From positions 1 to 49,495 of the IMG/VR virus record IMGVR_UViG_3300024518_003475: DNA of 49,495 nucleotides; one strand, written 5' to 3'. The notes under the pieces are model-generated. The model was not told where the DNA came from, did not search any database, and saw nothing but the letters and a program-made list of their open reading frames with translations. This DNA comes from a virus. Shown here in pieces: positions 4,673-24,665 of this stretch. A program made the translations under genes and the position numbers. The stretch's first letter is position 1. Each line of letters starts with the position of its first letter.

Positions 4673-5497
4673 ATGACTAAAGCTAAAACTAAAACTACAC
4701 CTGTAAAAACACAGAACTTCGCCGCGCAAATACGCGCCCTCCCAAGCATGAAGTCCGGCATCATTAGGAAAACCTGCTGGGAGATTGCCGAGGAAATCGT
4801 ACCAGTCAGCCGTAGAATACTCCTGTACGGCCTCCCAGCGACCGGTAAGACACACGCAGGCGTTTACCAGACCCCTAACAAGGATGTGGAGATCGTCGCT
4901 CTAACGCTCACTGAGGAGACCCCAGACAGTGAACTCCGCGGCCACTGGGTTCCCCAAGGCGGAGGCCTATTCAAATGGATGGACGGCCCGGTCCTCGATG
5001 CATGGCGTCACGGCAAGCGCCTTGTCCTCAACGAAATCAACAACTGCTCACCCGAAGCCGAAACCCTCCTCTACTGCATCCTCGACGATATGAACACAGC
5101 GAGGATCACGCTACCCAACGGCGAGACAGTCTCTCCCCACAAAGACTTCACCTGCGTAGCAACCATGAATGGCAAGCCGGAAGACCTGCCCGACGCTATC
5201 CGCTCCCGCCTCCCCGTAACGATCCACATCGACAAGACCAACCCCGACGCCATCGCGCAGCTCCCTCTGGAGTTCCGTAAGCTGGCCCGCTCAACCGTAG
5301 ACAAGACCGGCACCGACCGCATAGACGTACGTAAGTGGGCCGCCTTCGCCGAGGTTCTGCGCTGTGGCGTAGACATGGACGTCGCAGGTCTCAGTATATT
5401 CGCCTTAAAATGGGCCAACCTCCGCGAGGCAGTTCTCCTCGCCCTGCAAGTCCTCCCCAGCAAGAAGCAAGCAGTAGTGGAGGCCGACGATGCCTAA
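4673..5497 (+). CDS. MoxR/CobS-like AAA+ ATPase
   Basis: An AAA+ ATPase of the MoxR/CbbQ/CobS class (274 aa). Walker A is GLPATGKT (residues 53-60). Walker B reads LVLNEIN (117-123), with Asn in place of the usual Asp but the catalytic Glu kept. Sensor 1 is ATMN (163-166), followed by two candidate arginine fingers (R177, R179 in RSRL). Family members form hexamers that remodel a target through a VWA-domain partner, and such a partner is encoded by the next gene, overlapping by 8 bases. Phage genes of this type are often annotated cobS, but cobalt chelation is not implied. The substrate is unknown. Confidence 0.9.
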   Translation: MTKAKTKTTPVKTQNFAAQIRALPSMKSGIIRKTCWEIAEEIVPVSRRILLYGLPATGKTHAGVYQTPNKDVEIVALTLTEETPDSELRGHWVPQGGGLFKWMDGPVLDAWRHGKRLVLNEINNCSPEAETLLYCILDDMNTARITLPNGETVSPHKDFTCVATMNGKPEDLPDAIRSRLPVTIHIDKTNPDAIAQLPLEFRKLARSTVDKTGTDRIDVRKWAAFAEVLRCGVDMDVAGLSIFALKWANLREAVLLALQVLPSKKQAVVEADDA

Positions 5498-7268
5498 TAT
5501 GACGCGCGTAGAGCCGAAGTTCCTAGCGGCCCCCCGAAAGCCCTCGAAAGAGAGGGCCGTCGGGGCCAACCGTGCCTTGCACACCAAGTTCCCGGCCGTG
5601 ATCCTCAACAACCCGGACCTCGGGGAGTCCCGCTCCAAGACCTATGAGGGGGGGAAGATGAACGAGAAAACCAACACCTACATGATGAAGGGCGCAAAGT
5701 TCGCCTTCGAGGAGGGGATAGCCCGTTGGTTCGACCATCGATACCTGATACGACACCGCGCCACCCCGGATGAGCTCCCTTCCGACGTAAGAGCTCATAT
5801 CATGGCGGCAGTAGAGGACATGCGGGCCGGGCATATCGTCGAGAGGACAGGCATCAAGTACGAGATCGACTCTCTCGTAGATAAAGACGTCAAAGGGAAA
5901 GGAAGCATATCAGGCAACACGGAGTTCCTCCTCAACGGCTTCGGCTTCGGCGACCTCCCCAAGAAATTCGAGGAGAGCGACGAGCACGGCCTAGACGAGG
6001 ACGAGATAAAGACGCGCTACGCCCTTGAAACCGCGGGTGTCCTCATGGCTATACGCTTTATGGAATGCCCGATCCGGCACCAAGTACAACAAATCGTAGA
6101 CCGCACGTTCCACCCCCGCATGAAGTTCGTAGTCGAGACCATTGACGACCTCATGATCGAAAGCGACCTCTCCTTCTCCGACGCTCACCAAGTAGGCCGG
6201 TGCCTAGAGGCCCTACTCAGCGACCTACCGAACAACCCTTCCCCCCCTCCAGCGCCTCCACCGCGGGAAGCGCCCGCGGGTGCTATACCAACGCCCAAGG
6301 CTCCAGATAGACCTCCGGAGTGGGATCGATTAAGTGAGAATAAGGAGAAGATCGGCGATATACTGGAGACATCCCGTAAAGATTTAAAGGACACGGTAAA
6401 TTGGGATAATATCGGCTCCTTCACCCGCTACTCAGGCAACGTATCTAGCCAACTCCGTAAGGTAATTACACAGATCGGCGATGGCTACAACCGCTACTAC
6501 AGGACAGGCAGGAAGCCCTCGGAAGACTGGTTTACCTCCCTGCCTAGGCCGGGGTACCTAGGCTATGGCACCTACGCTCGGTATGGAGCCATAGCTAAAA
6601 AGGACAGCTTGCTGAAGGAAAGCCACTCTGTAAAGTGGGGCACGATGAGAGTGCAGACGCCTCGCCTTACACATACAACGGTTAAGCCTCGCGACTGTGG
6701 CAGAGACCATCGCCACATAGCACGCGAGTCAGGCCGAGTACCCCGCTTTATGCACCGCTTCCTTAGCGATGGGCGCGTATTCAGCCAGAAGAAACGTCGG
6801 AGGGGGGGAATAGCCCTGCTCATTGATATGAGCGGTAGCATGTGCTTATCAATGACCGACATGGACAACATCCTACGCAAGATTCCCGCCTCGATTATAG
6901 CTGGCTACGCCGGGCATGGGGTTTCTGGCACCCTGCGCGTTATTGGTAAAGACGGGCGTCGAGTAACCCGGGAGGTTGCAGATGTCCAAGGGGGCATGAA
7001 CGTGGTCGACCTACCCGCTTTACAATGGCTCGCAAGGCAAGGGAACGCAGGTAAATACTGGCTCTCCGACGGCATAGTAACGGGGCAATACGATAGCAAC
7101 GGGCCCGGCAACTACAAGGAGGTAGACGACTTCATCTGCGAGAACGATATCTACCAAGTCTCATGCGTTAGCAGGCTATTAGCCGTTATATTCGAGGGGA
7201 AGGAGCTTGAGAAGCGTACCCTACAAAAACACCTTGCGGGTGGGGAGGGGCTGCTAACGACGACGTAA
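5490..7268 (+). CDS. VWA-domain protein, CobT-like partner of the MoxR ATPase
   Basis: A 592-residue protein whose C-terminal third is a von Willebrand A domain. The MIDAS motif DMSGSM begins at about D446 (IALLIDMSGSM), which would bind a divalent metal and a target. Before it lies a Pro-rich linker (about residues 249-275). MoxR/VWA pairs (RavA-ViaA, NorQ-NorD, CbbQ-CbbO, CobS-CobT) act together as a remodelling chaperone, the VWA protein choosing the substrate. The gene overlaps the ATPase gene, which fits. It contains three G7 motif copies (5645, 6238, 6799), the highest density in the window; two encode EGGK and SPPP, and one falls just before the VWA strand. Confidence 0.88.
   Translation: MPNMTRVEPKFLAAPRKPSKERAVGANRALHTKFPAVILNNPDLGESRSKTYEGGKMNEKTNTYMMKGAKFAFEEGIARWFDHRYLIRHRATPDELPSDVRAHIMAAVEDMRAGHIVERTGIKYEIDSLVDKDVKGKGSISGNTEFLLNGFGFGDLPKKFEESDEHGLDEDEIKTRYALETAGVLMAIRFMECPIRHQVQQIVDRTFHPRMKFVVETIDDLMIESDLSFSDAHQVGRCLEALLSDLPNNPSPPPAPPPREAPAGAIPTPKAPDRPPEWDRLSENKEKIGDILETSRKDLKDTVNWDNIGSFTRYSGNVSSQLRKVITQIGDGYNRYYRTGRKPSEDWFTSLPRPGYLGYGTYARYGAIAKKDSLLKESHSVKWGTMRVQTPRLTHTTVKPRDCGRDHRHIARESGRVPRFMHRFLSDGRVFSQKKRRRGGIALLIDMSGSMCLSMTDMDNILRKIPASIIAGYAGHGVSGTLRVIGKDGRRVTREVADVQGGMNVVDLPALQWLARQGNAGKYWLSDGIVTGQYDSNGPGNYKEVDDFICENDIYQVSCVSRLLAVIFEGKELEKRTLQKHLAGGEGLLTTT
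5645..5657 (+). repeat. Dispersed G7 motif, copy 4 (first base T)
   Basis: TGAGGGGGGGAAG, one mismatch. It lies inside the VWA gene and is read as E-G-G-K. Confidence 0.85.
6238..6250 (-). repeat. Dispersed G7 motif, copy 5 (exact)
   Basis: The exact motif on the minus strand, in the Pro-rich linker of the VWA protein, read as P-S-P-P-P. Confidence 0.9.
6799..6811 (+). repeat. Dispersed G7 motif, copy 6 (last base T)
   Basis: GGAGGGGGGGAAT, one mismatch. It lies directly before the MIDAS strand of the VWA domain and is read as R-R-G-G-I, a different frame from other copies. Confidence 0.8.
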
Positions 7269-10044: not shown

Positions 10045-10369
10045 AAGCTTGGACCGTTACCCGCAGAGCTATTTCGACCTGTTCGAGAGAGCCTACGCGG
10101 GATCAGTCTCGATACCAACCAAGAGCCCAAGCGCGGCGGCTAATCTGCGTAGCGAACTCTATACATTTCGTAGGGTACTGCGCAATAGTGTAACCGAAGG
10201 CTTGGAACGGCGACAGATCGCGCTCATGGCTGACGACCTACAATTCAGGGTCGAAGGCAAGAGCCTTATCGTCGAGAAACGTAATATCGCTCGTAGCAGG
10301 CTGATCGAGCGGGTACTAGACGCGGCCGAAATGGAAGAGTTGGTCGATTCAGCTACCGGAAGTATGTAA
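10031..10369 (+). CDS. Basic protein of unknown function (112 aa)
   Basis: The N-terminus (MPRPKSLDRYPQSYFDLFERA) and the many Arg residues in helices suggest DNA or RNA binding. A central stretch reads ALMADDLQFRVEGKSLIVEKRN. It lies directly upstream of the recombination nuclease (stop and start share one base), so a role in recombination or replication is plausible but unproven. Confidence 0.65.
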   Translation: MPRPKSLDRYPQSYFDLFERAYAGSVSIPTKSPSAAANLRSELYTFRRVLRNSVTEGLERRQIALMADDLQFRVEGKSLIVEKRNIARSRLIERVLDAAEMEELVDSATGSM

Positions 10370-11301
10370 TGAAGGCTGCGACACAGCATCAACCCCCTGA
10401 AGGTAGCGGGCCTAGAGGTATAGATTTCCCGTCTTTCGTGGACTCTAGCGCCCGTGGGGCCTTTGCCGACTGCCCGCATAAGTTCTTCTACCAGTACCTA
10501 CGCCACCTCCACAGCCTGACGCCTAGCATACATTTACATGCAGGTGGCGCGTTCGCGAAAGGTATGGAGGTCGCCCGGGCTCACTTCTATGCGAAGAATA
10601 ACTCGGCTCAGGTGTCTATCGGTGAGGGCATGCGGGCTATTATTCTGTTCTACGGGGACTATATGTGCCCCGAGGATTCGGCAAAATCTTGCGAGAATAT
10701 CCTTCAGGCCTTCGACTACTATTTCGTACAGTGGGGCATGGAAACCGACACGCTCAAACCCTACATGAACAAGGGCATACCTGCCGTCGAGTTCTCGTTC
10801 GCCCTACCTCTCCCTGAGTGCAATCATCCTGTCAGTGGCGACCCGATTTTATACACGGGGCGCTTCGACATGCTCGGTCAACTCAGCGGCGGAGGTATCT
10901 ACGTGGTAGACGAAAAGACCACGAAATCCCTCGGCTCTACGTGGCCCCAACAGTGGGACTTAAGAGCCCAGTTCACAGGCTACTGTTGGGCCGCTAAAGA
11001 GTACGGCTTCGAGGTAGAGGGCGCTATCATCAGGGGCATATCGATTTTGAAGCGGAGCAACGGACACGCTCAAGCTATAACTTATCGGCCACAATGGAAG
11101 ATTGACCTGTGGCTCGAACAACTAATCAGGGACGTTAAGAGTATGATAAGGATGTGGGAGGAGGGGCATTGGGAACAGAATTTCGATGCGGCCTGCTCAC
11201 TTTACGGGGGCTGCTCGTACAAACCCCTTTGCGAGACCCATAATCCCGAGCAGTGGATCGTGGGCAACTATGCCAAACGGGTCTGGGACCCCTTGGCTTA
11301 A
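10369..11301 (+). CDS. PD-(D/E)XK nuclease with Fe-S site, Cas4/RecB-like
   Basis: A 310-residue nuclease of the RecB/Cas4 group. The PD-(D/E)XK core is D166 (GRFDMLG) and D180-E181-K182 (VVDEKT), with a possible upstream acid at E140 and the helper motif QFTGY (200-204). Four cysteines, C35 near the N-terminus and C275, C281 and C287 near the C-terminus (ACSLYGGCSYKPLC), match the [4Fe-4S] layout of Cas4 and AddB-type nucleases. It would resect or process DNA ends during phage recombination and replication. Its neighbours (Sak4-like ATPase, SSB-like protein, polymerase) support that. No cas1 or cas2 is present, so it is not a CRISPR gene. Confidence 0.88.
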   Translation: MKAATQHQPPEGSGPRGIDFPSFVDSSARGAFADCPHKFFYQYLRHLHSLTPSIHLHAGGAFAKGMEVARAHFYAKNNSAQVSIGEGMRAIILFYGDYMCPEDSAKSCENILQAFDYYFVQWGMETDTLKPYMNKGIPAVEFSFALPLPECNHPVSGDPILYTGRFDMLGQLSGGGIYVVDEKTTKSLGSTWPQQWDLRAQFTGYCWAAKEYGFEVEGAIIRGISILKRSNGHAQAITYRPQWKIDLWLEQLIRDVKSMIRMWEEGHWEQNFDAACSLYGGCSYKPLCETHNPEQWIVGNYAKRVWDPLA

Positions 11302-11316
11302 CACAGAGGTATACAA

Positions 11317-11862
11317 ATGGAAAACACCACACTACCTGACGCCTTAAAGGGCGCAGGACTGCGTATGAGCACCAAAAAGCACCCGGGCAAGGGCCGCGGG
11401 CCCATCAAGGTAAGGCGTCCCGACGTTGAGAAGTTCTTCCTCGACCACCGTGACGAGTATTATCGGGCGACAGCGGTTGCTTCGGCTATCGATAAGCCTG
11501 CGAAGAGTGTCTCGACACACCTATACAGGATGGAGGTAGCGGGGCTTTTACTACTACAGGAGAAGGGCAAAGACCCCAGATACCGTGCCTACAAGACAGC
11601 CCCGGGGTTCCGAAAGCTAACCGTCATGCATACCCGCAGACTCTCAGGGGAGCGGCCTCCTAAGGAAGTGGCTGCTTTCGCCGAACGGACTACTTCCCCC
11701 CCTCCTTGGGAGACGGGGAGACCTACGTGGACAGACGAGAATTTGTCTATCGGGGAGCACATAGAGGGGATCAATCTGACTATCGCGTTACTGGATGACA
11801 AGATGGCGGCGCTTGGGCGGGCCTATGCTCAAATCAAGCACAAGGTAGGTGCTATCTTATGA
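11317..11862 (+). CDS. Winged-helix DNA-binding protein (181 aa)
   Basis: Residues about 27-85 form a winged helix-turn-helix (VEKFFLDHRDEYYRATAVAS, then KSVSTHLYRMEVAGLL and the wing KGKDPRYRAYK). The basic N-terminus resembles a DNA-binding arm. A Pro-rich hinge (SPPPWE, made by a G7 motif copy) leads to a C-terminal helix of about 40 residues. It may be a regulator of the replication block or a replication accessory protein. AGAGGT precedes the ATG at 11317, and the stop overlaps the Sak4-like gene by four bases. Confidence 0.75.
   Translation: MENTTLPDALKGAGLRMSTKKHPGKGRGPIKVRRPDVEKFFLDHRDEYYRATAVASAIDKPAKSVSTHLYRMEVAGLLLLQEKGKDPRYRAYKTAPGFRKLTVMHTRRLSGERPPKEVAAFAERTTSPPPWETGRPTWTDENLSIGEHIEGINLTIALLDDKMAALGRAYAQIKHKVGAIL
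11693..11705 (-). repeat. Dispersed G7 motif, copy 8 (exact)
   Basis: The exact motif on the minus strand, read as T-S-P-P-P in the hinge of the winged-helix protein. Confidence 0.9.
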
Positions 11863-12689
11863 GCCTGCCGGGACCTAACGTCCTGCTGGTGGGGGCGACT
11901 GGCGTGGGTAAGACTCATGCTATTCGCTCCCTACTTGATGCAGGCATCGAGCAGGTATTCGTCGTCTTTACTGAGCCCGGCATGGAAGTCCTCAGCGACC
12001 TGCCGGAGGACAGTGTGCACTGGCACTACATTCCCCCGGCTAACGCTGACTGGCCCAAGATGATCGCTAGCGCGAGGAAGATTAACACGATGAACTTCGA
12101 GGCGTTGAGTAAGCTCAGCGAGATTAACAAGAGCGACTACGGGCAGTTCATTGAGCTATTGGAGACACTACACAACTTCAAGTGTGATCGTACGGGCGAG
12201 GAGTTCGGTAGCGTCACCAAGTTCGGTACGAAGCGGGCGCTTGTCGTGGACTCACTAAGCGGCCTCAACATCATGGCGATGGACCTCGTCGTAGGTAGCA
12301 AGCCGACGAAAAGCCTGAGCGATTGGGGTGTGGCGATGGACAATCTCGAACGCCTCGTGCAGAAACTCTGTGTCGATACGCACTGTACTTTCGTGCTGAC
12401 CGCGCACCTCGAACGCGAGGTTGACGAAGTGCAAGGCGGCGTACAGCTAATGGCTTCCACCCTAGGTCGCAAGCTCGCGCCACGCATGCCGCGCTTCTTC
12501 TCCGATACGATTCATTGCCAGCGTAAAGGTACTGAGTTCTCATGGAGTACCGCGTCAATCAACGTAGACCTGAAAGCTCGCAACCTCCCACTTGCAACGG
12601 GGCTTGAACCTAGCTTTGAGCAGATCGTCGATAACTGGAAGTCGCAAGGCGGCGTGCTCGAACACTTCACAATACCAGAAGAGGATTAA
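11859..12689 (+). CDS. Sak4-like RecA-fold ATPase
   Basis: A single-domain RecA-fold ATPase (276 aa) with Walker A GATGVGKT (residues 12-19) and Walker B RALVVDS ending near D131. A polar loop (FVLTAHLERE) follows, as in Sak4/RadA-like phage recombinases. These proteins bind single-stranded DNA and promote annealing or strand exchange, usually with an SSB partner, which is encoded nearby (13328-13777). It overlaps the upstream gene by four bases. It could also be a DnaB-like helicase core, but it is too short and lacks the N-terminal domain. Confidence 0.8.
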   Translation: MSLPGPNVLLVGATGVGKTHAIRSLLDAGIEQVFVVFTEPGMEVLSDLPEDSVHWHYIPPANADWPKMIASARKINTMNFEALSKLSEINKSDYGQFIELLETLHNFKCDRTGEEFGSVTKFGTKRALVVDSLSGLNIMAMDLVVGSKPTKSLSDWGVAMDNLERLVQKLCVDTHCTFVLTAHLEREVDEVQGGVQLMASTLGRKLAPRMPRFFSDTIHCQRKGTEFSWSTASINVDLKARNLPLATGLEPSFEQIVDNWKSQGGVLEHFTIPEED

Positions 12690-13922: not shown

Positions 13923-16286
13923 ATGAATATACCTACAACAATAGTAAAAAGCAAGAACATTGGTAAGGTGGGCGCTAGTGGCCCGACACACGCAAAAATT
14001 CTAATCGTAGGCGAGGCCCCGGGCGTTGAGGAGGTAGATCAAGGCCGCCCTTTTGTAGGGGCGTCGGGACGCGAGCTCACCTGTATCTTACGCGACGCCG
14101 GTATCAACAGGGAGGAGTGTCGCCTAATAAATGCAACCCCCTACCGTCCTGTAAACAATAAGATCGAGACCTTCTTCCTCGGCAAGCGCGAGGCTAAAGC
14201 CCTAGAGCAAGAGGAGTTCAATGGCAGGTATCCGACCGCCGAAATTTATCAGGGCATAGACCTACTCGAAAAGGAAATCCTACGAGTGCAACCCAATGTT
14301 ATCTTGGCCCTCGGAGCCACAGCCTTGTGGTGTTTAACCGGTCTCGAAGGCATCGGCCATTGGCGCGGTAGTATATTACATAGCCGCCTAGCCCGATCTG
14401 AAGGGTATGGCTACAAGATTGTCGCTACCTATCATCCTGCGGGGGTGCTCCGGCAATGGGCGTGGCGGGCAATCTCCGTAAGGGACTGCCAACGGGCCCT
14501 GACCGAGTCAGCGTACCCAGAAGTTAGGGAACCTCTTACCGACTATCAGATTGAGCCCACCTACACCCTAGCTTACAATTATCTCACCGAACTTATTTTA
14601 CAGCTCAACCAGTGTGGCGCGGACACTCCCATGCTCCTCGCGGTAGACATTGAAACCGCCCTGCATAAATGGATAACTTGTATCGGTATAGCGGTAAGCG
14701 TCTCGCAGGCTATAGTCATACCCTTTTGCCTTCGCGACGGCAGTAACTACTGGACTTTGAAGGAAGAAGTAAAATTAATTCAACTGCTCAAGGTAATACT
14801 AACGCATAAGAGTGCCCACATCGTCGGCCAGAATTACCTCTACGATATGCAATACATGGCTCGCTATTGGGGTTTCAAAAGTAACCTCGGTTTCGACACT
14901 ATGCTTGCACAACACACCGCGTACGCAGGCATGCCGAAGGCGCTCGACTTCTTAAGCAGCCTGTATCTCGACTACCATTGCAACTGGAAGAGCAAAAGGC
15001 ATGGCGTCGGTGGCGACGAGCTATGGTTCTACAACGCTGAAGATTGCTGCATCACTTACCAGTTAGTGCCACCTCTCCTTGATACGGTAGGCAAGACGAA
15101 GACGGGCGATGCCTACGAGACACAGATGAGCTTAGTCGACCCTGTGTTCGCTATGGAAATGCGCGGCATCAAGATCGACGAGGCATCGAAGGCAAAGGCC
15201 TCAGCGGAAATAGTAATAGAGATCGAGAAGGCTAAGCAGTACGTCGAAGACGTGCTCGGACACCCTCTGAATCCCGGCAGCAACCCACAGATGAAAGCCC
15301 TGTTCTACGACGATTTCGACATGCCCGTTATCTTTCACAGGAAGACGGGCAACCCTACCTGTGACGAGGATGCGCTAAAGCGATTTGCAAAGCGAGAGCC
15401 CCTGCTGAAGCCAATCATTGACAATATCCTGAAGCAACGACAGCTAGGTGTCCTCAAAAATACATTTCTTGACGCCGAGGTGGACCCCGACGGCAGAATG
15501 CGCTGCTCCTATAACATCGGGGGCACAGAGACCTTCAGGTTCTCCTCTTCACAGAGCGTATTCGACACCGGCACCAACCTACAGAACGTGCCGCCCCCTA
15601 TCAAGCACCTGTTTATACCTGACGAGGGCATGATGCTCGTCGATGTTGACCTTGATAGGGCCGACCTACAGGTAGTGGTCTGGGAAGCGGGCGACGAGGC
15701 CCTTAAACAAGCCATAAGAGAGGACGTAAATATACATGAAGCCAATGCGAAAGATATATTCGGAACTTGCAGTGAAACTCAATACAAACAAGCCAAGATG
15801 GGCGTCCATGCTACTAACTATGGGGCTTCTCCGAGGACCCTTGCAATCGCGTTGGGCATTACGGTCAAGGAAGCGGAGCACTTCCAGAAAGCGTGGTTCG
15901 GAGCCCACCCGGGCATCTGGGACTGGCGAACACGGGTCGAAGAGAGCTTGCAAACCACGCGCATGGTCCGTAACCGGTTCGGGTACAGACGTTACTACTT
16001 CGACCGGATCGAAAGCCTATTGCCGCAGGCTCTCGCGTGGATACCGCAGTCGACGGTAGCTAATGTTATTAACATAGGGATGCGACGTGTCTTCGACACG
16101 ATACCCGAAGCCGAGCTCCTACTACAGGTACATGACTCGATCGTATTTCAATGCAACGTGGAGGGGGGGAAGCAAATAGTCGATCGCGTTTGTGAGGCGC
16201 TGCTCGTGACAGTCCCATATGTCGACCCGCTTATCATCGGCGTCGGGGCCAAGACTAGCCTCGTAAGCTGGGGGGATGCGAAATGA
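13923..16286 (+). CDS. Uracil-DNA glycosylase / family A DNA polymerase fusion
   Basis: A 787-residue fusion. Residues about 18-195 are a family-4-like uracil-DNA glycosylase: GEAPG with GRPFVG (about 30-45), and the late motif ATYHPAGVLR. Next comes a 3'-5' exonuclease: Exo I VDIET, Exo II GQNYLYD, Exo III YNAEDC. The C-terminal half is polymerase A: motif A LVDVDLDRADLQ, motif B KQAKMGVHATNYG, motif C LQVHDSI. All exonuclease acids and both palm Asp residues are present. By eye, the O-helix residue matching E. coli Phe762 is His. It is the replicative polymerase; the fused glycosylase may remove uracil or recognise it at the fork. AAGGAG lies 8 bases before the ATG. Confidence 0.92.
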   Translation: MNIPTTIVKSKNIGKVGASGPTHAKILIVGEAPGVEEVDQGRPFVGASGRELTCILRDAGINREECRLINATPYRPVNNKIETFFLGKREAKALEQEEFNGRYPTAEIYQGIDLLEKEILRVQPNVILALGATALWCLTGLEGIGHWRGSILHSRLARSEGYGYKIVATYHPAGVLRQWAWRAISVRDCQRALTESAYPEVREPLTDYQIEPTYTLAYNYLTELILQLNQCGADTPMLLAVDIETALHKWITCIGIAVSVSQAIVIPFCLRDGSNYWTLKEEVKLIQLLKVILTHKSAHIVGQNYLYDMQYMARYWGFKSNLGFDTMLAQHTAYAGMPKALDFLSSLYLDYHCNWKSKRHGVGGDELWFYNAEDCCITYQLVPPLLDTVGKTKTGDAYETQMSLVDPVFAMEMRGIKIDEASKAKASAEIVIEIEKAKQYVEDVLGHPLNPGSNPQMKALFYDDFDMPVIFHRKTGNPTCDEDALKRFAKREPLLKPIIDNILKQRQLGVLKNTFLDAEVDPDGRMRCSYNIGGTETFRFSSSQSVFDTGTNLQNVPPPIKHLFIPDEGMMLVDVDLDRADLQVVVWEAGDEALKQAIREDVNIHEANAKDIFGTCSETQYKQAKMGVHATNYGASPRTLAIALGITVKEAEHFQKAWFGAHPGIWDWRTRVEESLQTTRMVRNRFGYRRYYFDRIESLLPQALAWIPQSTVANVINIGMRRVFDTIPEAELLLQVHDSIVFQCNVEGGKQIVDRVCEALLVTVPYVDPLIIGVGAKTSLVSWGDAK
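16160..16172 (+). repeat. Dispersed G7 motif, copy 10 (exact)
   Basis: The exact motif inside the polymerase palm region just after motif C, read as V-E-G-G-K. Confidence 0.9.
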
Positions 16287-16471: not shown

Positions 16472-16593
16472 TGACTATCGACAGGAAGACAGCGGCTAAG
16501 TTCGTGCCCGATGATAAGGCGTGGCGTAAGTTTACCCTGAAAGATGCGCCGAAGCCTTCCCCCCCTCCTCGGGAGCCTAAAAATGGCGCGTAG
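16471..16593 (+). CDS. Very short coupled ORF with SPPP tail (40 aa)
   Basis: The ATG at 16471 shares one base with the previous stop, and the frame runs 40 codons to the TAG at 16591, overlapping the helicase gene by 11 bases. The product is basic (DRKTAAKF, KAWRKF) and ends in PKPSPPPREPKNGA, where the G7 motif encodes SPPP. Its length makes it uncertain; coupling to both neighbours is the support. Confidence 0.5.
   Translation: MTIDRKTAAKFVPDDKAWRKFTLKDAPKPSPPPREPKNGA
16556..16568 (-). repeat. Dispersed G7 motif, copy 11 (exact)
   Basis: The exact motif on the minus strand, just upstream of the GGGAG ribosome site of the helicase gene. Confidence 0.9.
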
Positions 16594-17833
16594 ATGCAAG
16601 CACTTCCTCAAGACATACATGGAATACTGCGAGATAAGCGAGAGCCCGAGCAACTTCCATTTCTGGACGATGGTGTCGATTGTAGCAGGCGTGCTACGGC
16701 GGCGCGTGTGGATTGACGAGGTCAAGTTCCAGTGGACGCCTAACTTTTACATGGTACTGGTAGCTGAGGCTGGTGTCCTCGCCAAAAGTACGACGCTTCA
16801 GAATGGTATCCAGTTGATCAAGAAGATTAAGGGCCTCAACTTCGGGCCCGATGCGGTGACATGGCAGAGCCTAGTACAAAATCTCGGTGATATCAGGGAG
16901 GCGTTCGATATTGACGGCGTCTACTATGATATGTCTGCCCTCACGTTGAAGATCAGTGAGCTAGGCACGTTCTTAAATAGCGACGACGGGCAGATGCTCG
17001 ATGTGCTGACCGACCTATGGGATAGCCCGAAGGGCGCGTGGAAGAAAACAACGAAAACTCAGGGCGAAGATTACATCGTTGCACCATGGATTAACCTGAT
17101 GAGTGCAACTACACCGTCGTGGATAGCTCAGCACATCAACGCACACGCCCTTGAAGGGGGTCTCATTGCACGATGTATCTTCGTGTATGGGGAACAGAAG
17201 GCTAGGTTCGTTCCGTACCCTCACATGGAAGTGAGCGAAGCCTACGACAAATTGGAAAGTGACCTGCGTCATGACCTTGCTCACATGGCAGAGGTGCTCA
17301 GGGGTCAGTACCGTTTGACGCCATCCGCGCTCGCATGGGGCAAGGACTGGTACGAAGCATGGGAGGCTGACAAGAAAGACAACCCCTTAATGTTAAGCAC
17401 ACGCACGGCCAGCTTCATCGCGAGGAAGCCGACACACCTACATAAACTAGCAATGGTACTCGCGGCCACCAAGAGAGATACTATGGTTATTGAAAAGATC
17501 GACCTGATAGAGGCGGATAAAGCCCTTATTGACATAGAGGCTAGCCTGCCGAAAGTGTTCTCGCGGGTAAACATGAACAGCGGTAACGCTGCCATGTCAG
17601 CCGTACCCGCTATGATGAACATCGTTGCTAAGCTAGGCACGATCAACAAGAAGACGCTATACAAAGAGCTATTTAATACCTACAGGATTACGTCCCTTGA
17701 GTTCGATACCCTGCTCAAGAGTGCGATCGAAGCGGGCGAAATCGATATAGAAAAGCGAGGCTACTCCAGTATGATATCTAGGGTGCCTGAAACTGAGGGA
17801 AAAGTTTCTTTATCTCGCGGAACGGACGCTTAA
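16583..17833 (+). CDS. DUF3987-like helicase/primase-helicase (416 aa)
   Basis: It starts at ATG 16583 with GGGAG 8 bases upstream; the longer frame to 16544 has no ribosome site. The pattern NFHFWTMVSIVAGVLRRRVW, then AEAGVLAKSTT (a degenerate P-loop that keeps Lys-Ser-Thr) and ISELGTFL (Walker-B-like) with LTDLWDSP matches phage proteins annotated DUF3987 or primase-helicase. These are thought to unwind DNA at the phage fork. No other helicase is seen in the window, so this is the best candidate for the replicative one. The last 56 bases overlap the convergent late gene. Confidence 0.75.
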   Translation: MARRCKHFLKTYMEYCEISESPSNFHFWTMVSIVAGVLRRRVWIDEVKFQWTPNFYMVLVAEAGVLAKSTTLQNGIQLIKKIKGLNFGPDAVTWQSLVQNLGDIREAFDIDGVYYDMSALTLKISELGTFLNSDDGQMLDVLTDLWDSPKGAWKKTTKTQGEDYIVAPWINLMSATTPSWIAQHINAHALEGGLIARCIFVYGEQKARFVPYPHMEVSEAYDKLESDLRHDLAHMAEVLRGQYRLTPSALAWGKDWYEAWEADKKDNPLMLSTRTASFIARKPTHLHKLAMVLAATKRDTMVIEKIDLIEADKALIDIEASLPKVFSRVNMNSGNAAMSAVPAMMNIVAKLGTINKKTLYKELFNTYRITSLEFDTLLKSAIEAGEIDIEKRGYSSMISRVPETEGKVSLSRGTDA

Positions 17834-20800
17834 ACCCTTTCTCGAACGCGGCTGCCTCCTCTCGTAGCTTGGCCCTATTGTCAGTGGCTTTCTGTGAGCG
17901 GGCGAGCGTCTTGCCACTGATCTTGAGTCGGCGGTCAGGCACCTGCCTATTGTACCGCTTGATAGCATCCTTCACATCTTTGAGCCCTTCAGGGTCCTTC
18001 GACCTACGTACGTAGTTGAACGCCTCCAATAACTCTGAGCGGTAGGTCATGTAGAAGGCGCGGTGATCCTCCTGATGGGCCCGCAGCTTGTACCTGTCAT
18101 TGCGCCGCGTCGGTGAGAAGCCAAACGCCTGAGCGATCTGCTCGGTTACATGCTCCAAGTCCGATGGGTCATAATCGATAACTTCACCACCCCTGCGGAA
18201 CTCTTCCCCCCCTCTAGACGCTACACGACTAGCCTTAGATAGGCCCTTTAAGGCTGCGGGCAGCGTACGCTCGAAGCGCTTCCATGTATCAGGGTCTTGG
18301 CTACCCATCGCCTCGACCATATTGTAGAAGATCGCAGCTACAGGGCCGAGAATATCGACTGTAAATTTACCGAAGCGTTCGTCGGTAGTTCGTGCGCGGC
18401 CAGTCAACTCTTCAAGGCCGGGAACGGGACGGCCTAAGCCAATCGATCCCTGCACATCAACCTGAGGAATGGGGGCACCTAACAGGTCTAGGATGTGAAG
18501 GGGACCGAGGCCGCCCCGAGACGAGAGCCCGTACATCCACAGATCAGCCCCACCGGGGAGGTCTGTAAATAATTTACGTAGCTCAAGGCGTAAATCTACG
18601 TGCGGGTCTTTGAACCCGAGTTCTTTTTTCAGCTTCGTGCCACCGAAATCCAACAGGTCAAGTAGGTTCTCCATGAAAGGCAGGCCCATCGTGCCCGCTG
18701 CTAGGAATAGCATGCCTAGCACACTGATAGCTTGCTGCTTGCCATAGCCTCCAAAGACAGTAAACACCATGTTTTGCACGAAGGTCCAGAACAGGAAGAC
18801 AGGTGATAACTTACCCCGCATGAACAGGGGCCGATTCCACTTCGCGTACTCGAATATGGTATTACGTACCGCGGCCACAGCCGCACCGTAAGCCTGATCT
18901 AACTCCTCGCGCGTGGGATTTGCAACACCAGCTAATTCAAGCCTTGCTGTCGCAATGAACACCATGCGTCGAGTAATCTTCTCCGTAAACTGGAAAGGTA
19001 TCGCGGCCATCCGCGCGACGTTATGTATATGACGGGACGCCTTGCTCTTCGGTAGCACCCGGGCCATGATGTCGCCCTGAGCTGCCCCGGCAAGCTGAGT
19101 CGCAAGGGACTCGTCGAGTATCAACTCACGTACACCACGAGCCGTAAGCTTATCGAGCCAAGGTTCTATATTCTTCTTACCATCCTTTTGCATAAACGCT
19201 GTTGAATCTGGTATCGCTTTCGTCAAGGCGCTTAAAGCTCTACCCGGACCGTATTTGCCCGCGAGGAAAGGGTACGCCACGATAGGTACTTGCGTAAGGT
19301 TGACCGCAGCCGACTTAATGTTGAAGCCGAGGTACCATGTGAAGCCTAGAGCCCGTAGCCACGCAAGCTCATTACCGGGCTGCATGATGTAAGCAAAGTG
19401 CTGCTTAAGCGAGTCCTCGAAAATCGAGATACCCGTGCGATCGAACCCGGACAGGGAGCGCCCTTGTACGGACTCCGCATCCTTGAGTTGGCGAATGGTC
19501 TCCCGTTGTTGACGTAGAAGGATGTTCGCATGGTTCATTCGGGCGATGTGATTCGCTGCGGACTGCATGTAAGTAGCGAACACCCGCTCCATGTCCTCCG
19601 ACATGCCCTCTATACCCCGGCGCTTCATCATGTGTCCCACAAATTTACTGCCGGGAGTAAAGCGGAGGGCGAACTTGGCAAGCTCTACGCGCTGGGGATC
19701 ACGTAACAGGAGTGTCTCCGATAGCTGATCAAGGAAGCCCGGGGGTATGTCTACATGAGACTCCTCGACCTCTGACATCTTGAACGCTTCGAGATTAAAG
19801 AACTCCCCTTGATGCAGCTCAGCCAACTCCGGCGTATTCAACCACGACACCTGATCGGGCCTATTCTCAAAGGTCCATAAGCCTGCGACCTGCCCATCAT
19901 TGAATTTACGCCCCTGATACTCCGCCCCATTCTTTCGAGCCTTCAACGTAACAGCCCACTTGCCGAAACGCTTGTACGGGAAGTAGTTACGCCCACGCAT
20001 GCCCTCGTACGAAGACTTCAGATGCGACAGCTCGGTAAGCTGCTCTTCAACAAGCGCCAGCTTGGCCTCATCATCCCGGGTAGCAGCTAGCAATTCAAGC
20101 TCTTCGACAATAGCCTTGCGCTGCTCAGAAAAATCGTCGGTATCGTTGTAACGATCGACGAAATCTATCGATAACTTCTCGATCAGCTCATCGTTTTGCA
20201 GGCCTGTCTGTGGGTCCTTGTAAATACCCCCGGACTCAATCAGCTTAAAGACGACGCCACGCATCGCAGCATTCTGCATGCTTTGATTAATGTCATCGAG
20301 CATAGCCTCGTAACGCTCCTGAAATATCTGGATGCTTGTCTTGCTACTATCCTCGGCCGACCAGACGAGGCCTGCACCCCTGTAGATATTCTTCTTTTCG
20401 TTAGGCAGTATTGGGCGACCACGATCGTCGGATGCTGTCGATAACGAGAACATAATCCGGGCTAACACAGACTGATCCCGCTTACTTAACTTCTTGCGGG
20501 TATCATTAAGGAGAATATCTGCCTCGGATATGTGGCTGGCCTTCTCCGCAGCCCAGTCTGTCAAGCGCTGAATATAAGCAGTGAACGACTGTATCTTTAA
20601 GCCCAGAGCCATTTGGTGCGGCGATAAAAATACCGTCTTCAGCTTTGTCCACAAGGGATTAGACAGCTTGTCGACAGCGTTGCTCATATCCTTATCAGCC
20701 CCTAAAGATGTGGCCTCCCGGCCAGCAACAGTACGCCCACCCGCTAGGGCTATAATGTCCTGCCCCTTAAGATTCTTCAGCGGTATAACCATCCGCCTCA

Positions 20801-23800
20801 AGTCCCGATAATTCTCCGCTACAAAACCTTCCTTAGTACCTTCTTTGCTAACCTCCCGGGCCCCGTACTCCCTCTGGAACCACTTATATAGGTTGACATA
20901 GCGGTTATATATACGCCTGTGCCCGGGTTGCATCGACTCAATATCGCCGCCCGGGCTAATCCAGCCCTCATGCTCAGCGATGAGAATAGGGTGGATAAAG
21001 CTGTAGTTTTGATAGCCTGCATCGGCCGCCCGCCTGACATCTTCGCGCAGCATGCGCCGGAATAGGCTAGGTGCGATCTGCTTATACACCTCAGCCGCCG
21101 AGGTAAAGCCCGGTGACCCCTTATCCCCAACCTTAAGCGTTATCAAATTGCTGGCTGTAACAATATTGGCCTGCTCAGCAAGATAGGCCTGACTTAACAC
21201 TATGAGGTTCTTGGATGAAAGAAACAGCTTATCCATAACACTCTGCGGAATTGTAATGCCGTGAACGCCCTCCGCTGTTTTCTGCGCATCCTTAATACTC
21301 TCTTGCGTTACTACTGTGGCTGAGTCTCGTAGGTCTATCGATAGACGCTGGTTTCTGCTTCTTTGCCACTGGTCCGCCATATCAACTACGGCTCGGGATA
21401 TTGCTATCTCATCAGCGCTCAGATTTACAACCATGGAGAGCTGTTGAGCAAAATCGCTCTGAGCCTCGGTAGCTATCCACTCAATATTACCTGAACCGTT
21501 CGCAACAGCGATGCCTCGCATATGGCCCCGGTAAAAAGGCTCCCGGGGATAATGGCCTGACTTAAATTCCACATCCTGTCGCGTGTCGTAGTAGATAACC
21601 ATCTCGGGGTGCAAAGCCCCTACCCCAAAGGTACGCGACGGGTCATGAATAGGAACCCTGTTTTCCTCCAAGCCAAGCTGCTTACCTACGAGCGAGTCAG
21701 ATACATAAGCATCCACGAAGGTAGCGTACGGGTCGACGTAGTGGTTGAAGAAGATAAGCTTATCGAGTATCGCCTGCTCTAGCTCACTAGGCGAGATACG
21801 TAGGCTCGTATAGGAATCGAGGATTGAGAGGACAAGGTCTCGTTCCTCTGCTGAACCGCTGCGCTTTTTAGCAAGCGTCCGCAGTTGCCCCTGCGTTAGC
21901 GTACCCTTGTAGAGCTGCTTGATAACAGCAGCCGAGCGTAGAGCTTTAATGAAATGGGTAATAACACCCTTAGCCGTGTTATCTGTAACCTCGATGCCAT
22001 GGCTTATCTCATTTGTCGACGGTATCGGGGCGACTCGGGGAGGCCGTCTCTGTAACCGACGCTGTAGCCCCATTAAAATCAGGCGGACATCATTATCAGT
22101 AAGCTGCTTAAATTGCCCGGGGAGCAGCTTACGTAACCACTGACGTATAACAGCCACCAGCTTATTCCAGAAACCCAGCTCAAAATCGTTAGCCTCCGCG
22201 GCCTCCGCAAGCACCTCTTCAGCAATCTCGTCTTCAATACGCCGCAGCTCGAGCGTAACACCCCGGGCCTTAGCTACCGCTTCCATATCAGCCCTGCGGA
22301 ATTGCCGCACGAGCTTGATAATGGCCCGCTTCTCTTTTGCGGTCATGCCCCGAAGGCCATGATGCACGAGTATCTCGTGGAGGTAGAGCGCGGCTACACG
22401 CTCGGCACTCTCCATACGATCGAGCAGGAATAGTGTGTACGAGGTGCCGTCGGTGTTCTCGACATGGAGCGCCTGCGTTTCAAATTTATTGTTGTCATGC
22501 TTCGCAATAGACGCTTTTACACGGGGATCGCGGATCGCATTGGTGTCTGAAACGAGGACGATGCGGCCCTCGTTGAGCAGCCGTACACTATTGATAGCCT
22601 CCCGCGCGTCGGAGACCGCAACACGAGATGCTTCTTCAGTGGGCGCAGCCCCCCCGGCTTTGGATGCCTTGGCCTTACGTTTGCGCTTACGCTTCCCCCC
22701 CTCCTTGGGCTGTTTAGCCCCCCGCTCTAGGGCCTCTTCGAAGGCTATTCCTAAAGCGGTGGCTTGCTGCTCGGTTTCAGAGGTGGGAACAACGTCCTCC
22801 TCGGAAAAGGCGGCGACCGCTGCCTGAATATTTTTGGAGCGTATGATCTCGCCCTGAGCTTTAACTGCCTCGGCTTCTACAGCCGCTTCAAGGTCCTCAA
22901 TAATCTGCTGCTTTTGATTAACAGTAAGGCGATCACGTTCGATAGGATCACCAGAAATGATGCCTGCAAAATCATCGAGAAGTGTATTCTCTCGGTCGGT
23001 AAGCTGCTCACCATTATCAATTTTATCTTGAAGGCGGGCGAAGACTTTACGTTGCCCAATAGATAATTTCGAAACATTAGTTTCGGTCTGATCAACAACA
23101 AGACCCTCGGCTGTTGGCTTAGCTTCGATGTCGAGGCGACCACTGATCTCGGCTATCGCGTCGTCAATCTGAAGGATAGCGGTTTTGGCCTCATCGGTTA
23201 ACTGCCCTTTTCTATTGTAAGATTTAGGGTCCGACTTCGCTGCGAACAAGGCTTGCTTCTGGGCACTAAGCTCAGCCTTATCGGCTGTGATTACCGGGTC
23301 CTCTACAAAAGGCTCGGGTTTCGTAATATCAACGAGGTCAACCTGCTGTAGAGGATTAACATCGTGAGACGTCAATGCCGTAATGGTCTTCGGCTTCGAC
23401 TGAACGGTTGATTTCTGTACCTCTTGCGAATCTGGGGTCGCAGTCCTCGTCCCTACGGGACTCGGAGGGGGGGAAGATATCGGGTCCTGTACATCAGGGG
23501 CGTCGCGGCGTAGCTCAGTCTCCCCTGCTTCAGCGTCGAGTAGGCTGGCTTCAGGAGAGGAAAGTAGCGCAGTATCGGTTGGCTGGCGGGAGGTAAAGGT
23601 ACCACCTGCGCCACCGAGGACAAAGCCTAGGAGCGTGCCTGTTGCAAGGGAGTTGAGAATACGAGAGGAAGCCTCGGGGCCAAGCGTGTCGAAGTTCTCA
23701 TCGACGAATGACCGAGCGCCAATAGCAATGAGTTCCTGCATAAACTCGGTTGTACCCTCGACGCCCGCTGCGCCACCTGCAATAGTGCCTGCCCGTACGA

Positions 23801-24665
23801 GACGGTTTTGCTGAAGGGCTGTGTCCCGCAGCTTGCTCAGGAAAGAGGTAGATATTGGCGTGGTAAGGCCGAAGACTTTACCCAGTGCCAGTGGTGTAAC
23901 GGTTTCAAGGGCACCTGCAAGAGAGCCCCCGATTAAAGCTACACCACTTCGTAATGGGAGGCCTGCTTCTAGCTGTTCACCGAAGATACCTCCTGTTTCC
24001 AGAGCAGTAGCACCAGTAACGACACCACCGGCCACACCTCGACCCGTGACTAGGCGCTTGGCGGAGGCGGCAGCCAGCTCTTCAGTCCAGACTTTAGATT
24101 TATCCTTGAGTAGCTGTGCTGCCTTGGCTGTAATAGCCTTCTTGCCTACAAGACGGGCTAGTATGCCACCGACACCACCGGCAGCTACTATGGAAACAAC
24201 GATGGGTAACTGCTCCCCTATACTAAAGGCGGCCCAATCGAGGAACTGCCCCATGGAATTGATGTCTTCAACGGACTCAACTGTAGGCCTAAAGGCATCG
24301 GTCGAGTTCATGAAGTTGGAATAGGAATCGAGGAGGGAATCCCGGGCGCTGTCAGCACCGACTAGGTCAGCTAGGGCAGCGACACCTCCGACATTGAGAG
24401 CGGCCGTTTTGCGTATGCCTGTGGAAAAGCCTTTAGAAAAGGGACCTGCCTCATCTGGAGGCGTAAGCCTAGGTAACGTGCCTGCTATTAAGCGTTGCGA
24501 TGCTGTCTGCCCTGACTGGGTAGTAAAGGCCTGAAGCTTCTCTGAAAGCGACAGATTTTCAGGGACAACCGGAGCATTGACGCCTATTGAAGTAGGCAGG
24601 CGCGGTTTATTCTCCCCGCCAAACTGGCGAAGAAGCGACGATAACCTATCGTTAGGATCAGCCAT
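17778..24665 (-). CDS. Giant ejection protein with zincin motif and LPD38-like end (2295 aa)
   Basis: The largest gene, last of the late operon. Near the N-terminus are Gly/Ala-rich hydrophobic stretches (about residues 145-170 and 230-250) that could enter a membrane. At about residues 763-772, HEILVHHGLR fits the HExxxHxGLR zinc-peptidase-like motif of phage polyvalent proteins. Near residue 1060, EAQSDFAQQ recalls the E-x-QSD motif of such proteins. The last ~500 residues resemble the LPD38 region. By size, position after two other large proteins and content, it is likely the counterpart of T7 gp16: an internal virion protein ejected into the host envelope. No lytic transglycosylase motif is seen; the zincin may cut peptide bonds instead. 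Confidence 0.82.
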   Translation of the reverse strand: MADPNDRLSSLLRQFGGENKPRLPTSIGVNAPVVPENLSLSEKLQAFTTQSGQTASQRLIAGTLPRLTPPDEAGPFSKGFSTGIRKTAALNVGGVAALADLVGADSARDSLLDSYSNFMNSTDAFRPTVESVEDINSMGQFLDWAAFSIGEQLPIVVSIVAAGGVGGILARLVGKKAITAKAAQLLKDKSKVWTEELAAASAKRLVTGRGVAGGVVTGATALETGGIFGEQLEAGLPLRSGVALIGGSLAGALETVTPLALGKVFGLTTPISTSFLSKLRDTALQQNRLVRAGTIAGGAAGVEGTTEFMQELIAIGARSFVDENFDTLGPEASSRILNSLATGTLLGFVLGGAGGTFTSRQPTDTALLSSPEASLLDAEAGETELRRDAPDVQDPISSPPPSPVGTRTATPDSQEVQKSTVQSKPKTITALTSHDVNPLQQVDLVDITKPEPFVEDPVITADKAELSAQKQALFAAKSDPKSYNRKGQLTDEAKTAILQIDDAIAEISGRLDIEAKPTAEGLVVDQTETNVSKLSIGQRKVFARLQDKIDNGEQLTDRENTLLDDFAGIISGDPIERDRLTVNQKQQIIEDLEAAVEAEAVKAQGEIIRSKNIQAAVAAFSEEDVVPTSETEQQATALGIAFEEALERGAKQPKEGGKRKRKRKAKASKAGGAAPTEEASRVAVSDAREAINSVRLLNEGRIVLVSDTNAIRDPRVKASIAKHDNNKFETQALHVENTDGTSYTLFLLDRMESAERVAALYLHEILVHHGLRGMTAKEKRAIIKLVRQFRRADMEAVAKARGVTLELRRIEDEIAEEVLAEAAEANDFELGFWNKLVAVIRQWLRKLLPGQFKQLTDNDVRLILMGLQRRLQRRPPRVAPIPSTNEISHGIEVTDNTAKGVITHFIKALRSAAVIKQLYKGTLTQGQLRTLAKKRSGSAEERDLVLSILDSYTSLRISPSELEQAILDKLIFFNHYVDPYATFVDAYVSDSLVGKQLGLEENRVPIHDPSRTFGVGALHPEMVIYYDTRQDVEFKSGHYPREPFYRGHMRGIAVANGSGNIEWIATEAQSDFAQQLSMVVNLSADEIAISRAVVDMADQWQRSRNQRLSIDLRDSATVVTQESIKDAQKTAEGVHGITIPQSVMDKLFLSSKNLIVLSQAYLAEQANIVTASNLITLKVGDKGSPGFTSAAEVYKQIAPSLFRRMLREDVRRAADAGYQNYSFIHPILIAEHEGWISPGGDIESMQPGHRRIYNRYVNLYKWFQREYGAREVSKEGTKEGFVAENYRDLRRMVIPLKNLKGQDIIALAGGRTVAGREATSLGADKDMSNAVDKLSNPLWTKLKTVFLSPHQMALGLKIQSFTAYIQRLTDWAAEKASHISEADILLNDTRKKLSKRDQSVLARIMFSLSTASDDRGRPILPNEKKNIYRGAGLVWSAEDSSKTSIQIFQERYEAMLDDINQSMQNAAMRGVVFKLIESGGIYKDPQTGLQNDELIEKLSIDFVDRYNDTDDFSEQRKAIVEELELLAATRDDEAKLALVEEQLTELSHLKSSYEGMRGRNYFPYKRFGKWAVTLKARKNGAEYQGRKFNDGQVAGLWTFENRPDQVSWLNTPELAELHQGEFFNLEAFKMSEVEESHVDIPPGFLDQLSETLLLRDPQRVELAKFALRFTPGSKFVGHMMKRRGIEGMSEDMERVFATYMQSAANHIARMNHANILLRQQRETIRQLKDAESVQGRSLSGFDRTGISIFEDSLKQHFAYIMQPGNELAWLRALGFTWYLGFNIKSAAVNLTQVPIVAYPFLAGKYGPGRALSALTKAIPDSTAFMQKDGKKNIEPWLDKLTARGVRELILDESLATQLAGAAQGDIMARVLPKSKASRHIHNVARMAAIPFQFTEKITRRMVFIATARLELAGVANPTREELDQAYGAAVAAVRNTIFEYAKWNRPLFMRGKLSPVFLFWTFVQNMVFTVFGGYGKQQAISVLGMLFLAAGTMGLPFMENLLDLLDFGGTKLKKELGFKDPHVDLRLELRKLFTDLPGGADLWMYGLSSRGGLGPLHILDLLGAPIPQVDVQGSIGLGRPVPGLEELTGRARTTDERFGKFTVDILGPVAAIFYNMVEAMGSQDPDTWKRFERTLPAALKGLSKASRVASRGGEEFRRGGEVIDYDPSDLEHVTEQIAQAFGFSPTRRNDRYKLRAHQEDHRAFYMTYRSELLEAFNYVRRSKDPEGLKDVKDAIKRYNRQVPDRRLKISGKTLARSQKATDNRAKLREEAAAFEKGFKRPFREIKKLFPQFQAP
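18203..18215 (-). repeat. Dispersed G7 motif, copy 12 (one mismatch)
   Basis: AGAGGGGGGGAAG on the minus strand, inside the giant gene, read as R-G-G-E. Confidence 0.85.
22692..22704 (-). repeat. Dispersed G7 motif, copy 13 (exact)
   Basis: The exact motif on the minus strand, read as K-E-G-G-K just before a Lys/Arg-rich linker of the giant protein. Confidence 0.9.
23464..23476 (+). repeat. Dispersed G7 motif, copy 14 (exact)
   Basis: The exact motif on plus, antisense to the giant gene, read there as S-S-P-P-P in a Ser/Thr/Pro-rich linker. Confidence 0.9.

Follow-up and report, generated by a model that had tools for sequence, protein, structure and literature searches.

We find that the open reading frame at 13923-16286 on the plus strand of a 49,495-base IMG/VR virus record (the whole stretch analysed, hereafter the window) encodes a 787-residue fusion of a uracil-DNA glycosylase (UDG), an exonuclease and a family A DNA polymerase (PolA), in which histidine occupies the position of E. 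coli Phe762. His762 is fixed across a large clade of 162 distinct sequences. Alignment and structural modelling indicate that the nucleotide pocket has been rebuilt in a clade-specific manner, with His762, Asn765 and often Asp710 and Ser883, to which the window protein adds Tyr754 together with Asn732. Our favoured reading, held with moderate confidence, is that this is a replicative phage polymerase whose UDG fold would serve mainly as a DNA-binding module and, in the window protein, would also recognise uracil.

Domain organisation and catalytic residues

Pfam assigns to the window protein a UDG domain at residues 20-180 (E 4.5e-25), an exonuclease at 221-383 (3.4e-8) and DNA_pol_A at 425-760 (6.7e-45), the last with a PF00476 score of 154 bits against a cut-off of 34.3, and residues 19-786 match phrog_17, 'DNA polymerase', in PHROGs. 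An AlphaFold2 model built from 46 sequences (pLDDT 93.7, pTM 0.90) has an orderly three-domain arrangement, and its top Foldseek match is Klenow (8oo6), with a TM-score of 0.79 by target length. The UDG domain extends over residues 20-195 (13980-14507, +; PF03167, with TIGR00758 at 1.7e-24 but under its curated cut-off), the 3'-5' exonuclease over residues ~205-391 (14535-15095, +), and the PolA thumb, palm and fingers, as delimited by Pfam, Klenow mapping and the model, over residues 405-787 (15135-16283, +).

All DEDDy exonuclease residues are present, with D242/E244 of exo I, D308 of exo II and Y370/D374 of exo III corresponding to Klenow D355/E357, D424 and Y497/D501. In the polymerase, R539 corresponds to R668, D576 to D705, K625 to K758, Y633 to Y766 and H737/D738 to H881/D882, so that the metal ligands D705 and D882 and the further family A residues K758, Y766, R668 and H881 are all retained. 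By alignment and in the model, polymerase and exonuclease both have their full sets of catalytic metal ligands intact. The first-pass annotation of this DNA had read glycosylase, exonuclease and polymerase motifs in the frame, and Pfam and the mapped residues uphold all three domains.

Residue 762 and the nucleotide pocket

Motif B, on helix O (15783-15824, +), carries Y621 at R754, K625 at K758, H629 at F762, N632 at I765 and Y633 at Y766. In alignment with the E. coli and T7 polymerases, H629 pairs with Phe762 without gaps (K625-x3-H629-x3-Y633 for K758/F762/Y766), and a 46-sequence profile against the Klenow sequence likewise places His under F762, gap-free and with high posterior. Motif B forms a single unbroken helix (618-632) in the model. 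The histidine had been proposed by eye, with structural alignment or prediction named as the check; with that check run, including superposition on Klenow, His stays under F762. Klenow mapping also bears out the Asp read at Glu710 (D581) in motif A (VDVDLDRADLQVVVW, 15642-15686, +), which retains D576 at D705, and the Ser read at Glu883 (S739) in motif C (QVHDS, 16125-16139, +). Three changes go beyond that annotation: R754 to Tyr (Y621), D732 to Asn (N603; 15729-15731, +) and I765 to Asn (N632). Ser883 is not special in itself, being found in DpoZ and in phage T5 (PMC8599892).

His762 would take the place of the Phe ring that packs on the incoming sugar and, together with Asp710, should hold the 3'-OH of that sugar by polar contact, from which weak discrimination against ddNTPs is predicted. 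The prediction is reasonable, since the F762Y substitution has a known effect on how nucleotides are handled (PMC9069017).

The His762 clade

Relatives were drawn from GenBank phages, IMG/VR and one genome contig, using peptide patterns that leave out motif B in the three main scans and, in two of these, come from the polymerase part only. In the deduplicated collection, whose sampling starts from the window's clade, residue 762 is His in 162 sequences, Phe in 22 and Tyr in 8. The Phe and Tyr sequences are distant matches, and every close relative of the window has His. Among the 162, Asn765 occurs in 145, Asp710 in 122, Glu710 in 38 and Ser883 in 146. Two loci (L231 and L212) have the motif A MDLKQSHDVT, with His for Glu710 alongside His762 and Lys765.

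A tree built with the motif columns masked recovers one His762 group, with one origin of the Glu710-to-Asp change inside it; 12 UDG-PolAs with Phe762 or Tyr762 fall outside. A single, weakly supported branch of the best tree separates all the sampled His762 polymerases from the others. In a wider tree with more outliers, His versus not-His is a single change whose exact branch is weak (SH-aLRT ~25) because the Tyr762 podovirus ctLwi270 sits nearby; the group including ctLwi270 reaches 96. A long-branched His762 outlier in this tree, L266, also has Asp710, and a second Glu710-to-Asp change is possible on that account.

Named phages with His762 are few: Mel-JY34, VS-ABTNL-3, Kuura, a Desulfofustis phage, ctMlz233 and EBPR podovirus 3. 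The classes of phage PolA given for residue 762 are Phe, Tyr and Leu only (Nasko et al., 2018; PMC6302109), and neither the window nor its clade fits any of them. Keown et al. (2022; PMC9069017) likewise retained only F, L or Y at this position, and the His762 class was dropped before that survey's analysis because the pipeline kept only those residues. A search of open-licence papers for His at 762 returned no relevant paper. The earlier remark that His is uncommon at 762 holds relative to isolates and the literature, but not in the sense of a one-protein oddity. The Bordetella phage BPP-1 polymerase was also considered and rejected; its sequence lacks such a motif and resembles a distant PolA.

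Loss of R754 and its probable link to residue 732

With residue 754 assigned by direct counting from K758, 131 of the His762 sequences have Arg there and 21, the window included, have Tyr. The gamma-phosphate arginine of PF00476 is Tyr621 in the window and Tyr in 20 relatives, which is variation inside family A, the domain match being otherwise clear. Among cluster representatives, residue 732 is not Asp in 15 of the 17 without R754 and in 1 of the 55 with it, and column 603 (N603 in the window) is the sole column conserved at >=70% that is linked to R754 loss. The same joint loss is seen outside the His762 clade, in L008, L009 and L236. On well-supported branches there are four independent R754-D732 pairs, of which 2-3 agree and 0 disagree (sign test p 0.25-0.5); coupling is likely but not proven, and the small number of such pairs counts against this part of our reading. 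We suggest that Lys or Asn at 732 could take over the R754/D732 role at the triphosphate end.

His762, Asp710, Ser883 and Tyr754 could instead reflect neutral drift, the polymerase being under relaxed constraint or almost without activity: R754 is needed for the gamma-phosphate and is non-mutable in Taq (PMC8599892), so that its loss could mean low activity. We regard drift as very improbable, given that His762 never varies in the clade although positions beside it do, that D705, D882, K758, R668 and Q849 show no variation or almost none, that loss of R754 is paired with change at D732, and that the window record holds no other PolA.

The uracil-DNA glycosylase domain

The uracil pocket of the window protein is complete (E31, E37, F44, N70 and H171, which we take to be E41, E47, F54, N80 and H155 of the Thermus thermophilus enzyme). 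The domain is best called family-4-like: it scores 86 bits against the family 4 model TIGR00758 (cut-off 125), and it lacks all four iron-sulphur cysteines, Cys84 being replaced by Tyr and the N-terminal CxxC being absent. A UdgX-type assignment was rejected on a weak TIGR03914 match (73 of 190 bits). Cys84 is kept in 12/12 UDG-PolAs with Phe762 or Tyr762, and the common residues at this position in the His762 clade are E, V, F, Y, I and D; the clade has lost the Fe-S cysteines that its Phe/Tyr762 counterparts keep. In the His762 clade, though not in the Phe/Tyr762 relatives, the UDG residues R148-G149-S150 hardly vary (153, 151 and 154 of 154).

The domain itself is present in 155/155 complete His762 loci, and the seven sequences without it are cut by contig ends. 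The counter-example is a distant lineage, represented by EBPR podovirus 3 (L269, 1784-4105, -) and three IMG/VR contigs like it (L271-L273), which have His762 and an N-terminus of ~140 residues without UDG motifs. This N-terminus contains an RGS stretch, and in hhalign that of EBPR podovirus 3 matches the UDG domain only weakly, around the RGS motif; it is possibly a decayed UDG fold. Because these four have His762 without a recognisable UDG, the domain is not absolutely required, which counts against our favoured reading.

The pocket is less constant than the fold. With Asp for E47 scored as intact, all five residues are kept in 113 of 154 His762 sequences, four in 20 and three or fewer in 21, and the loss of two or more in those 21 corresponds to at least seven changes on the tree; the Vibrio phage VS-ABTNL-3 type, with EDFYS, is one example of a decayed pocket. 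Single positions are well kept in the case of F54 (151/154) and E41 (149/154), and H171 is found in 125/154. The main argument for a structural role is that the fold is kept while the pocket chemistry is repeatedly lost, so that uracil chemistry is perhaps not the sole, and may not be the main, reason for the presence of the UDG across the clade.

Poxvirus D4 is a UDG that forms the DNA-binding part of a viral replicative polymerase holoenzyme; it is a separate protein, joined via A20 to a family B polymerase. Like D4, the fold in the window protein would serve a replicative polymerase, although the polymerases are not homologous. In our favoured reading, the polymerase is built as UDG, proofreading exonuclease and polymerase with a presumed replicative role, and the UDG fold would be mainly a fixed module gripping DNA, as D4 is in its holoenzyme. 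The window UDG could also recognise, and would probably excise, uracil met during synthesis. The earlier suggestion that the fusion couples uracil detection to synthesis is possible for the window protein because its pocket is intact.

We weighed two other accounts. In the first, which we hold to be less probable but serious, the UDG works at the replisome as a tethered repair enzyme, clearing uracil close to the fork from the template or the new strand, and persists for its catalysis; the uracil would come from deaminated cytosine or from misincorporated dUTP, also where host defences deplete nucleotides. The complete pocket in the window and 113/154 relatives, with F54 and E41 almost always kept, fits this account and weighs against ours, since most members may use the domain chiefly as a glycosylase. 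Against it are the roughly seven pocket decays without domain loss, the retention of the domain with a degraded pocket (QENPF) in SPO1, and the difficulty that excision from the template would leave an abasic site, a block to the very polymerase that carries the UDG. The second account, which we think improbable, makes the UDG a read-ahead sensor that binds template uracil and stalls synthesis without excision, much as the uracil pocket of archaeal family B polymerases does. Retained pocket residues, a single polypeptide with the polymerase and the orderly three-domain model would suit such a sensor, but H171, which helps catalysis beyond binding and which a pure sensor would not need, is kept in most of the clade.

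Comparison with known polymerases

Fusion of UDG to PolA is an already known architecture, found in PaBG, SPO1 and Serbin-type phages. PaBG gp205 is, by its published domain description, a UDG-domain PolA like that of the window (PMC7412058). SPO1 gp31 shares the N-terminal UDG domain, which is homologous (hhalign E 6.5e-16), but differs in having Phe762, a gene interrupted by an intron and a degraded UDG pocket, with QENPF for GEAPG, M for F54 and S for N80. The Serbin, Yersinia P744 and Brevundimonas polymerases are UDG-exonuclease-polymerase fusions too, but with Phe762, Glu710 and the Fe-S cysteine positions kept.

Close counterparts are found in Microcystis phage Mel-JY34 (PP438425) and the uncultured phage ctMlz233 (MW202489), whose PolA has the same domain order and His762, Asn765, Asp710 and Ser883, at 40-41% identity to the window protein, but keeps R754. 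Their gene order is also that of the window (nuclease, Sak4-like ATPase, PolA, DUF3987-type gene, then convergent structural genes), except that a DNA methylase gene precedes polA in both and none was seen in the window. DpoZ of the 2-aminoadenine phages (phiVC8) resembles the window protein in its unusual motif B and Ser883 (PMC8599892), but carries specific insertions and Phe in place of Y766; in the window protein Tyr766 is retained (Tyr633) and the score against NF038380 is 65 bits (cut-off 500), and a 2-aminoadenine polymerase was rejected.

Genome context

Three genes of the replication module were identified around the polymerase by Pfam and PHROGs, all on the plus strand: a PD-(D/E)XK nuclease (10369-11301), a Sak4-like RecA ATPase (11859-12689) and, downstream of polA, a DUF3987 gene (16544-17833) matching phrog_14296, 'DNA primase' (helicase-like). 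A phrog_14296 homologue lies near polA in 183/198 His762 loci versus 1/17 Phe762 and 1/9 Tyr762 loci (flanks mostly 3-8 kb), and the Sak4-like ATPase has a homologue in 110/198 His762 loci. Further PHROGs matches in the window are to terminase, portal and head-tail adaptor, major head protein and a large DarB-like protein; these, with a head-tail adaptor gene of T7 type among them, suggest an unclassified podovirus-like tailed phage. The DarB-like match (phrog_10089, phrog_11358) is at the C-terminus of a 2295-aa protein (17778-24665, -) convergent to the replication genes, and several relatives have a large ORF in the equivalent place. Elsewhere in the window, an AAA_5 ATPase (4673-5497, +) adjoins a 592-aa protein (5490-7268, +; phrog_33218), and the two look like a MoxR/VWA-type pair.

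Split and interrupted polymerase genes

At 12 related loci (L005, 9647-10257, with L079, L081, L082, L083, L084, L085, L086, L087, L089, L090 and L092) the polymerase is in two ORFs, and the break falls in the loop that follows NLQNxP and immediately precedes motif A. NIPxGD(E) and a stop close the first ORF, and the second begins with M...LPNxRKxF; additional ORFs lie in some of the gaps (HNH_3 in L084), and other pairs are adjacent or overlapping. The SPO1 intron is in the same region, and a search of the recurrent split site for introns gave no Rfam match. Splits occur elsewhere in Caulobacter phage Kuura (L006, 7974-11378; inside the exonuclease before exo III), in L077 (between UDG and exonuclease) and in ctLwi270 (L009; between exonuclease and polymerase). 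Another locus, L210 (2828-6193), has an in-frame insertion of ~300 aa within motif B, two residues before His762, running from C-V-V-G-S to V-T-G-N-S. It looks like an intein in sequence, and Pfam at E 0.01 named no intein domain in it. Stop-codon recoding in the relatives was rejected, as only single stops in few contigs were found.

Implications for phage replication

Phage life style and replication biochemistry are commonly read from residue 762 of PolA, which is used as their marker. The His762 class is abundant in metagenomes but almost missing from isolates, and it has a partner gene of its own. Tentatively, and with less confidence than in our reading of the window protein, His762 may define a fourth major phage PolA type that arose once from UDG-fused polymerases, with phrog_14296 as its own replisome partner, residue 732 replacing R754 for the dNTP triphosphate in some lineages, and, as an integral DNA clamp, a UDG that has shed its Fe-S cluster and in many cases its chemistry. 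These are natural polymerases with joint changes at positions long treated as fixed (F762, E710, R754 and D732), and the series from intact to decayed UDG on one polymerase scaffold allows a direct test of what a glycosylase fused to a polymerase is for.
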